DNA of 64,000 nt from Rubrobacter aplysinae. Lineage in GTDB: Bacteria > Actinomycetota > Rubrobacteria > Rubrobacterales > Rubrobacteraceae. The stretch spans positions 75,230 through 139,229 of the forward strand of contig NZ_LEKH01000004.1 in assembly GCF_001029505.1 (NCBI RefSeq). The letters are read 5' to 3'. Below are positions 14,278 to 16,827 of this stretch, piece after piece. Each line of letters starts with the position of its first letter. Within the stretch, counting starts at the first letter, position 1. The position numbers and the translations under genes are program-made. The notes beneath the pieces are model-generated. The model worked only from the letters and a program-made list of their open reading frames with translations, had not been told where the DNA came from and made no database searches.

Positions 14278-14727
14278 ATGATACGGGGCCTCAACCACCT
14301 GACCTTCGCCGTCTCCAATCTGGGGGTCTCGTTCGACTTCTATACCCGGGCGCTCGGGCTTTCGCCGGTGGCGCGGTGGGAGGGAGGCGCGTACCTGCTG
14401 ACCGGGGAGGACTGGATCACGCTCATCGCCGACCCCGCCGTCCAGGATAACCCGCACCCGGACTACACTCACGCCGCATTTACCGTCGGTCCAGAGGATT
14501 TCGACGAGGCGAGCCGTCGCGTTCTCGGAGCGGGGGCGCGGCTCTGGCAGAGAAACGGCACCGAGGGTACGTCGCTGTACTTCACGGACCCCGACGGGCA
14601 CAGGCTGGAGCTGCACGCCTCGGATCTCGCCGCCCGGCTCGCGGCCGAGCGCGAGGACCCGCCGCTGGGGATGGAGTTCTACCGGGGCTCTGCGGATTCT
14701 GCGGAAGGACCGGAGTTCGAGGCGTGA
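14278..14727 (+). CDS. FosA-like VOC metalloenzyme
   Basis: A single VOC (glyoxalase/bleomycin resistance) domain of about 120 residues with a 25-residue tail. IRGLNHLTFAVSNL starts the fold, WEGGAYLLTGEDW follows, and three metal ligands are placed as in FosA: His in GLNHL, His in DYTHAAF, Glu in GHRLELH. FosA adds glutathione to fosfomycin; FosB/FosX variants use other nucleophiles. Resistance is not proven and the nucleophile cannot be told. Its 3' end overlaps the convergent CPBP gene by 49 bases. Confidence 0.8.
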   Translation: MIRGLNHLTFAVSNLGVSFDFYTRALGLSPVARWEGGAYLLTGEDWITLIADPAVQDNPHPDYTHAAFTVGPEDFDEASRRVLGAGARLWQRNGTEGTSLYFTDPDGHRLELHASDLAARLAAEREDPPLGMEFYRGSADSAEGPEFEA

Positions 14728-15719
14728 TCCCCCGGGCGGGCGGCCAGCGGCAGGTGCAGGCCCACCTTGCCATTTCGCAGGCGCATCCAGAGCGAGATCA
14801 GGAGCACCCCGAGTAGGGTGGCGAACACCGTGAGCAGCCCGGCCTCGGGGCCGAAGGGCCCGCCGGTCCACGCCTCGGGACCGCCCTGCTCGACGGCGAG
14901 GAAGCTGGCCCGCCCGGAGTCGAGGCCGCTTACCGGGAAGCCGAATACGCCGGCCTGGAAGAAGTTCCAGGTAATGTGGAGCCCTATCGGGATGGCCAGG
15001 CTACCGCCGAGGATGTAGCCTGCCCCGAGCATGAGCCCGGCCAGGGCGATATTTACCGTGCTTAGGAGCGTGGAGTTCGGGTTCGGCAGGTGCAGCAGGC
15101 CGAACACCGAGGAGGTCAGTATCCAGGCGGTGAGGATCGCCGTCCGAGGGCCGATCACACCCCCGAGCCCTTCGGAGATGTTCTTGAGCTGATAACCCCG
15201 GGTGAGCAGCTCCTCGTACACTCCGACGCACACGAACGTCGCCACCGGGCCGAGTATGGCGAGCCAGAATGGCGCGCCGCCCGGAGAGCCGGTCGCAAAG
15301 CCCCCGGTAACGCTCACCCAGCCCATACCGAGCTCTATCAGGAAGATCGCCGTCATTAGCGCGGCTCCCAGCGCTAGGCCGAAGCCGAGATCCAACCACC
15401 ACCCCCGGTTCAGCCTCAGCCCGTAGTCCCGCAGCCGCCGCCGGTCCAAAAAACGCCCCGCCGCCCACACCGCCAGGAGGGCCGCGAGCAGCGAGGCGAC
15501 GCTGCTGATGAGCAGCAGACCGCCCCCCGACGGCTGTGGAGAACCGCCGCCGGGCGCGCCCATGGCGGCAAAGACCAGCACGAGCGGCGCGGTCAGGAAC
15601 GCGCTAGCCACCAGAAAGAGCACGAGCTGCGCCAGTATGCGCCACAGGGCCCGCGGCCTGCGCCGCCCGTTCTCGAGCTCCTCTACGAAAGGCTGGGTCA
15701 GGATCTCCTGCCTGCTCAA
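14679..15719 (-). CDS. CPBP-family intramembrane metalloprotease
   Basis: About eight transmembrane segments with the CPBP (Abi/Rce1-like) motifs: EELLTR (EExxxR, about residue 167), FGLLHLPN (FxxxH), and a third conserved His in GLHITWNFF. Members cleave membrane-bound substrates; the target is unknown. TTG start at 15719 overlaps the end of the DUF4174 gene by four bases, so it is the third gene of the thioredoxin-fold operon. The 3' end overlaps the convergent FosA-like gene. Confidence 0.85.
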   Translation of the reverse strand: MSRQEILTQPFVEELENGRRRPRALWRILAQLVLFLVASAFLTAPLVLVFAAMGAPGGGSPQPSGGGLLLISSVASLLAALLAVWAAGRFLDRRRLRDYGLRLNRGWWLDLGFGLALGAALMTAIFLIELGMGWVSVTGGFATGSPGGAPFWLAILGPVATFVCVGVYEELLTRGYQLKNISEGLGGVIGPRTAILTAWILTSSVFGLLHLPNPNSTLLSTVNIALAGLMLGAGYILGGSLAIPIGLHITWNFFQAGVFGFPVSGLDSGRASFLAVEQGGPEAWTGGPFGPEAGLLTVFATLLGVLLISLWMRLRNGKVGLHLPLAARPGDHASNSGPSAESAEPR

Positions 15720-16072
15720 GGTCCTTCCCCGCGACCCTCACGCCCCTCTTCCGCCTCTCGCATCTCCCGGCGGCGCAGGGGCATCTCGTCTACGTGGCCG
15801 AACAGCTCGTCCGAGGCGACGAGCTCCGGGTAGCGGCGTTTCACGCCGCCGTCCCGGCCCACGAGAAGGGCCGCGAAAACGTCCGCAGCGACGCCGTACT
15901 CCCGCCGGGCGGGCGCGGCCCGGTCTCCGGTCAGGTACTCGACCCGCAGGTCCCGGTCGGAGAGCCCCTCCGCTGCGCCGGAGAGCAGCTCTCGCTGCCG
16001 GAGGAGGCGGGCGTCCTCCGCGGCGGGTGCGAAGACGAGTAGCCGCCGCGGTTTCTCCGGGAAAGGGTCCAG
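15716..16072 (-). CDS. DUF4174-containing protein, start uncertain
   Basis: The frame reads LAELDPFPEKPRRLLVFAPAAEDARLL ... DVFAALLVGRDGGVKRRYPELV ... FGHVDEMPLRRREMREA, which is the DUF4174 pattern: a thioredoxin-like fold of about 115 residues, function unknown. No ATG, GTG or TTG precedes the conserved region in this frame. The first near-start is CTG 16072, just after the stop of the upstream gene, whose final codons supply AAAGG as a ribosome site. The gene is therefore probably translated by coupling from a rare start, unless it is fused to the upstream protein by frameshifting. Confidence 0.6.
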   Translation of the reverse strand: MDPFPEKPRRLLVFAPAAEDARLLRQRELLSGAAEGLSDRDLRVEYLTGDRAAPARREYGVAADVFAALLVGRDGGVKRRYPELVASDELFGHVDEMPLRRREMREAEEGREGRGEGP

Positions 16073-16077
16073 CTCTG

Positions 16078-16827
16078 CTAGCCTTTCATCTTCAGGGTCT
16101 GGCGCACCGCCTCGTTGTAGCGCTCGACGATTTCGCGGTACTCGTCCACCTCCCGGCCGGCCTCGGTCTCGCCCAGACGCTTCTTGAGGGCGACGCAGCT
16201 GAAGTACGCGCCGAGGTAGTAGGGCCGCAGGCTTTCGAGTGGCATCGGCTGGCGCTCGGGGCGGACCGTCTTCTCGGCGGCCTCCTCGGCGGTGTACTGG
16301 ATCTCGGGCTCGTCGGCGCCGGTCGTACTGCTGTTGCCGCTGGCGTTCCCGGCGTCGTCGAGGGCCGAGATCACCGCGTCCTCGGCGGGCCGGTCGGAGA
16401 AGTCCTTGCCGCCGGTGTAGGCGTAGCGGACCTTGCCGGAGGCGTCGAGCACGACGATTGCGGGCTCGGCCACGCCCTCGCTCTCGTTCCACACGCCGCA
16501 CCGCTTCGCGAGCTCGCCTTCGGGGTCGCTGAGTAGCGGGAACGGCAGGGCGAGCTTCTCGACCATCGCCCGGTTGCTCTCTGGCGGGTCCACGCTGACC
16601 CCGGCGATCCGCGCCCCGCGGCTTTCGATCTCTTCGTATCTCCTGGCGAAGCTAACTAGCTGCCCGTTGCAGTACGGTCACCAGTCGCCCCGGTAGAACA
16701 GGAGCACCACCGGACCCTCGGGTAGCCTCTCCGGCAGGCTGAAAGCGCCGCCCCGTTCGTCGGGCAGCTCGAATAGGGGGACGGTGGATGCCCCCTCCGT
16801 GACCGGGTGTGTCGCCGTGTCCGTCAA
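16078..16827 (-). CDS. peroxiredoxin/thioredoxin-like protein, probable selenoprotein (in-frame TGA = Sec50)
   Basis: From TTG 16827 (GGAGG eight bases upstream) the frame reads VPLFELPDERGGAFSLPERL, VVLLFYRGDW, then TGA at 16680-16678, then PYCNGQLVSFARRYEEI and GVSVDPPESNRAMV through to the TAG at 16078. The TGA replaces exactly the first cysteine of the expected YRGDWCPYC redox motif of this AhpC/TSA-like family, giving UxxC. A hairpin 14-33 bases downstream fits a bacterial SECIS. The 249-residue protein continues past the redoxin fold (about 1-165) with a helical C-terminal extension of about 80 residues. It heads an operon with DUF4174 and CPBP genes. Alternative: nonsense mutation or sequence error at that one codon. 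Confidence 0.75.
16645..16664 (-). promoter_or_regulatory. candidate bacterial SECIS hairpin
   Basis: On the coding strand, 14 bases past the in-frame TGA, GGC-AGCT-[AGTT]-AGCT-TC-GCC folds as a 7-bp stem with a two-base bulge and an apical AGUU loop. The loop lies 20 bases after the TGA and has a G among its first two bases followed by U, matching the general rule for bacterial SECIS elements that bind SelB. Folding was done by eye only. Confidence 0.5.

Follow-up and report, generated by a model that had tools for sequence, protein, structure and literature searches.

We found that a gene on the reverse strand of a 64,000-nucleotide stretch of the Rubrobacter aplysinae genome (the window, to which all positions refer) almost certainly encodes a selenoprotein, in which the UGA at codon 50 would be read as selenocysteine (Sec). 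This reading is favoured because both the codon and an RNA signal that follows it are conserved in about 30 actinobacterial genomes, and because the full machinery for Sec is present in the genome of the organism itself (G000; 3.19 Mb, 99% complete). The features of the gene, its product and its neighbours are collected in Table 1.

Table 1. Features of the selenoprotein gene and of the genes downstream of it, in window coordinates.
Feature	Positions	Strand	Basis or remark
Selenoprotein gene, 249-residue Prx-like UxxC protein	16078..16827	-	TTG start at 16827, TAG stop at 16080-16078
Predicted Shine-Dalgarno region TGGAGGAA, just before TTG16827	16831..16838	-	sequence
In-frame TGA, predicted to be read as Sec; residue 50, first of UPYC	16678..16680	-	30 aligned genomes share TGA here; non-Sec relatives have TGC, TCC or GAC
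Cys53, last residue of UxxC, opposite the peroxidatic Cys of peroxiredoxins	16669..16671	-	alignment
Predicted SECIS hairpin GGC-AGCU-AGUU-AGCU-UC-GCC	16645..16664	-	tetraloop 16657-16654, conserved GU 16656-16655, cross-loop A-U pair (G-C or C-G in relatives)
Pro122, invariant, opposite the catalytic Arg of peroxiredoxins	16462..16464	-	alignment
Peroxiredoxin/thioredoxin-fold domain, about residues 14-165	16333..16788	-	Pfam AhpC-TSA; AlphaFold model; match to PDB 1xxu
C-terminal extension, residues 166-249	16081..16332	-	two long predicted helices; in most actinobacterial orthologues
DUF4174 gene, directly downstream	15716..16072	-	start uncertain, nearest candidate CTG16072; similar gene 3' in several relatives
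CPBP (Rce1-like) membrane protease gene, third in the same-strand cluster	14679..15719	-	similar gene downstream in many relatives

The gene had been proposed from the letters of the window alone (hereafter, the sequence-only reading), and its account of the frame was borne out. Translation from TTG16827 to TAG16078 gives 249 residues with a single in-frame TGA (residue 50), placed as described between YRGDW and PYC (YRGDW-U-PYCNGQLVSFA); an alignment of homologues has either TGA or Cys in exactly the predicted column, and the frame is open and conserved on both sides of it. The strong ribosome site that had been noticed, GGAGGAACAC, precedes TTG16827 and is a good one. The expected loss of residues 1-78 in standard gene calling was also reproduced, with a table-11 ORF caller beginning at GTG16593, 3' of the active site. 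Thus, mechanical gene calling loses the active site here, and presumably in related genomes too.

The TGA occupies the column of codon 50 in 30 aligned genomes from ten families, 29 of which are other species (G002, identical to G022 at this gene, was omitted from this set). Within the Rubrobacteraceae, 19 genomes have an orthologue with TGA at this exact codon, 17 of them full-length; in the incomplete ones, the frame stops early (G023) or the copy is shifted upstream of the motif (G061). Beyond this family, the UxxC site with TGA is present in 12 genomes from nine further families of Actinomycetota, most of them having the same C-terminal region as well, and other Rubrobacteraceae copies show TGC (Cys), TCC (Ser; G004 and G060) or GAC (Asp; G012) at this codon. 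In all comparisons made, dN was lower than dS on either side of the TGA, and the decay in relatives that had been named as a sign against the proposal was not seen: the frame is unbroken, and selection is purifying both before and after the TGA.

Residue 50 is Ser, Cys or Asp in the paralogues or orthologues L103 (G004), L167 (G016), L095 (G012) and L168 (G060), two of which have Asp at position 53, and G016 holds one Sec copy and one non-Sec copy. The copy of G028 (L104) has a 12-base tandem duplication spanning the UGA, which gives two UGA four codons apart, and also a TAG; it is either decaying or an assembly artefact. Secondary matches with one TGA in G008, G019, G077 and G096 were rejected as selenoproteins, as their motif is GDWS..C and their TGA is the normal stop. 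Among PLSDB plasmids only distant homologues were found (below 60% identity), and PADLOC returned no match.

The sequence-only reading had also placed a hairpin with an AGUU loop 20 bases past the TGA, and this was found, with its loop at 16657-16654 and a stem of AGCU/AGCU. In TGA genes the RNA can form GGC-AGCU-NGUN-AGCU-NN-GCC, an element just 3' of the UGA with a G in its small apical loop. RNA folding, proposed as a check, agreed in part: the hairpin forms, is conserved and covaries, but its energy is no better than that of shuffled sequences (z = +0.66). Therefore, conservation and covariation, and not folding energy, were used as evidence for the SECIS. In the G-C version of the hairpin, a competing alternative fold is present.

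In 15 TGA genes the codons 3' of the TGA are nearly frozen as GGG CAG CTG/CTA GTC/GTT AGC TWY GCC AGG, encoding GQLVS(Y/F)AR. Synonymous identity among TGA genes is 0.85 at codons +1 to +13, versus 0.55 upstream and 0.58 downstream, whereas in Cys genes this stretch does not stand out (0.63 versus 0.68 and 0.64, respectively). AGG stands at codon +12 in 15 of 15 TGA genes, while it accounts for 9.6% of the Arg codons in eight neighbouring genes; CTA and GTT (6.7% of Leu and 5.5% of Val codons) appear at the hairpin only in combination, each supplying one side of the same pair. Over the 30 TGA genomes, GU is at the loop centre in 28, not being seen at the usual place in G302 and G200, and the flanking pair is G-C in 23, A-U in three and C-G in three. 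The lower stem reads GGC/GCC in the Rubrobacteraceae and GCC/GGC in most other families. Since the groups with the A-U pair (our genome on the one hand, G013 and G021 on the other) are placed apart in the tree, the change of both bases probably arose on two occasions. In G302 (L152) the loop appears to lie about four bases further 3' than usual (GCC-GGUCU-GGC).

When the window was scanned with a covariance model of this hairpin, the present site alone was significant (E 2.5e-21; the following match had E 2.9), and in the whole genome it was again the one clear match (E 1.3e-19, followed by 0.5). The model is therefore specific to this gene and gives no catalogue of further selenoproteins. The conserved GU and the concerted changes of its flanking pair are as expected for a SelB-binding SECIS, and the three types of pair around it mark what SelB probably recognises in this lineage. 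SelB carrying Sec-tRNA would bind this hairpin, which lies at a distance from the UGA that suits SelB (20 bases to the start of the loop), and the ribosome would then insert Sec at codon 50.

In Escherichia coli, the loop of the fdhF element is GGUC and starts 18 bases after the UGA, compared with 20 here. The conserved apical bases of the E. coli SECIS are G23 and U24, and SelB contacts U17 and G23 (PMC8659212). Both elements expose an apical-loop G-U at a similar distance from the UGA, the GU described here corresponding to G23/U24. However, a 5' bulge like that of U17 is not evident in our element, which has a bulge on the 3' side instead, and the lower stems are unrelated.

As for the machinery, the sequence-only reading had deduced that the cell makes selenocysteine, to be checked by a search for selA, selB, tRNA-Sec and selD, and all four are present together in G000. 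The tRNA-Sec (anticodon UCA, 61.1 bits, in agreement with ARAGORN) forms one cluster with selB and selA, which lie directly beside it on the same strand. The selB gene, an open frame of 630 codons, scores 316 bits and has the C-terminal winged-helix domain of SelB, and selA (488 bits) is adjacent to it. The selD gene (G000:C22:28730-29647, L114) has an in-frame TGA of its own, in KAG-U-ASK, and is thus itself a selenoprotein candidate; a strong hairpin with a G-rich loop follows this TGA, and the selD genes of most Rubrobacteraceae have one TGA each. Since selA was found in all 22 high-quality Rubrobacteraceae genomes, the Sec trait is general in the family. Outside it, 11 of the 12 TGA-bearing genomes have selA, versus around 55% (197/357) of the sampled phylum. 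SelA was not detected in four TGA genomes, namely G284 (93% complete, 590 contigs) and the three incomplete Rubrobacteraceae G031, G035 and G061.

These data bear on three other ways of accounting for the TGA. A nonsense mutation or a sequencing error in an ordinary Cys gene, which would make it a pseudogene or an artefact, could draw on the damaged relative G028, with its 12-base duplication, two TGA and one TAG. This explanation is nevertheless extremely improbable, and is already refuted by the recurrence of the same TGA in 30 genomes across families; the frame is intact, purifying selection acts on either side of the codon, and the downstream bases are constrained at the RNA level solely in TGA genes. 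We also consider it very unlikely that the UGA is read through in another manner, by mis-reading as Trp or Cys or by a change of code. Sec insertion here is deduced from sequence, which leaves this reading some room, but TGA is the ordinary stop of the orthologues in G008, G013, G016 and G021, relatives carry Cys rather than Trp in the column, and the SECIS signal is present along with the four sel genes. Finally, it is hardly credible that the main product is a short one from GTG16593, with the UGA as a regulatory stop. A mechanical ORF caller does select this start; however, a clear ribosome site accompanies the upstream TTG, conservation at the N terminus is strong throughout the orthologues, and the truncated form would have neither the initial strands of the fold nor its active site.

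Turning to the product of the proposed selenoprotein gene, it has the domain of the Prx-like UxxC family, Pfam AhpC-TSA (PF00578; E 1.4e-33, 115.9 bits against a cut-off of 26), with U50-P-Y-C53 as its UxxC motif. The AlphaFold model has a mean pLDDT of 87.5, and its nearest solved fold, over residues 14-165, is Mycobacterium tuberculosis AhpE (PDB 1xxu, TMt 0.90), a 1-Cys peroxiredoxin that lacks both the UxxC and the two-helix tail. When the sequence is aligned with solved peroxiredoxins, U50 stands opposite the Thr of TxxC, C53 opposite the peroxidatic Cys and the invariant P122 opposite the catalytic Arg. The classical peroxiredoxin site (PxxxTxxC plus the catalytic Arg) is therefore absent, and, since U50 and P122 take the positions of its Thr and Arg, the active site, as judged from this alignment, resembles that of thioredoxins (UxxC plus Pro) but is set in a peroxiredoxin fold. 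This also qualifies the earlier statement that the TGA sits at the catalytic cysteine: U50 does replace the first Cys of a CxxC, but it aligns with the peroxiredoxin Thr, and it is C53 that has the position of the peroxidatic Cys.

Helices were predicted for residues 197-218 and 222-248 of the C-terminal extension, which has no match in Pfam or NCBIfam; our guess is that this two-helix tail may serve contacts with a partner or within a dimer. No NCBIfam model reaches its cut-off for the protein, so automated annotation would probably miss it; the model for SelL-related redox proteins (NF040769) scores 36.6 bits, under its curated cut-off of 120, and membership in that group is not assigned.

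By its sequence, the protein is probably a thiol/disulphide oxidoreductase or an atypical peroxidase, and oxidoreductase chemistry is the assignment that we favour, with some reserve. A selenoprotein that works as a conventional peroxiredoxin, with C53 peroxidatic and U50 merely assisting or resolving, would agree with the peroxiredoxin fold and with C53 lying opposite the peroxidatic Cys. We regard it as rather doubtful, given the invariant Pro at the position of the catalytic Arg, the U in place of the Thr of TxxC, and the Asp found at the C53 position in some non-Sec homologues. In the preferred thioredoxin-like site, U50 would most likely be the attacking selenolate, a selenenyl-sulphide between U50 and C53 would form, and a thioredoxin-like partner would reduce it.

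An initial tree of the orthologues, in which only one outside row was included, had poor resolution, and a second one including more outside Sec forms was used. When midpoint-rooted, this tree has two changes between Sec and non-Sec forms, and the simplest reading, with the root so inferred, is that Sec would be ancestral, with about two losses within the Rubrobacteraceae. The Cys gene of G018 keeps a SECIS-like remnant, GCTGGTCGGC, which fits the direction from Sec to Cys. Moreover, the genomes with non-Sec genes mostly still have selA, so it was the gene that changed and not the Sec trait that was lost. The resulting natural series, in which the same residue is Sec, Cys, Ser or Asp and at least one Cys gene still has the trace of a SECIS, offers a testbed for the retention or loss of selenium.

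The sequence-only reading had called this a probable new selenoprotein; the selenoprotein part is supported, but the word new claims too much. As a predicted family, Prx-like UxxC selenoproteins are already established, having been described from the Sargasso Sea (PMC1088965) and in later surveys (PMC2398784, PMC13188914), and a 2006 survey credits Rubrobacter xylanophilus with five selenoproteins (PMC1794560). The tRNA-Sec of R. xylanophilus has been noted as well (PMC5330540); in the literature consulted, that 2006 survey and a tRNA-Sec survey were the only informative mentions of Rubrobacter.

With the Prx-like thiol:disulfide oxidoreductase selenoproteins of these reports (PMC1088965, PMC1794560, PMC2398784, PMC13188914), our protein shares the AhpC-TSA domain (PF00578), Sec as the first residue of UxxC and a bacterial SECIS just 3'. 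It appears to differ from them (published representative, WP_010940744.1) in combining YRGDWUPYCNGQLVS with a conserved, mostly helical tail of about 84 residues. Sec-containing peroxiredoxins likewise share the fold and selenium chemistry, but carry Sec in TxxU, whereas here the motif is UxxC and the catalytic Arg is absent. Cys relatives with RGDWCPYCN (annotated as peroxiredoxin-like family protein) are nearly identical in the active-site segment save for U to C, but their matches in other phyla mostly stop near residue 160, before the tail. The tail-bearing actinobacterial subfamily with its well-resolved SECIS is thus possibly new, and would extend Sec in Actinomycetota beyond the classic selenoenzymes. 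In our judgement it is an evenly balanced proposal that these genes form a selenoprotein subfamily which has gone unrecognised and spans the actinobacterial phylum, with Sec as its ancestral state and the helical tail as its defining feature; the subfamily would be tied to a partly conserved DUF4174/CPBP-protease cluster as a dedicated redox module, and its Sec would occasionally have given way to Cys, Ser or Asp.

Genes for a DUF4174 protein and a CPBP membrane protease follow the selenoprotein gene here and in part of the relatives. The earlier claim that the gene heads a tightly overlapping operon holds insofar as the DUF4174 gene comes at once on the 3' side, in another frame, and is followed by the CPBP-protease gene, but the start of the former is unclear. 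It has no ATG, GTG or TTG near the expected place; the nearest in-frame candidate is CTG16072, just past the TAG, and alternatively its translation may be coupled to that of the preceding gene. Another Prx-like selenoprotein candidate, which lacks the tail and has RGTWUPHC or RGTWUPFC as its motif, was observed in other families of the phylum (G090:C3:952227-952712, G180:C48:40045-40527 and G121:C17:8190-8675; L163-L165), and all three of these genomes have selA.
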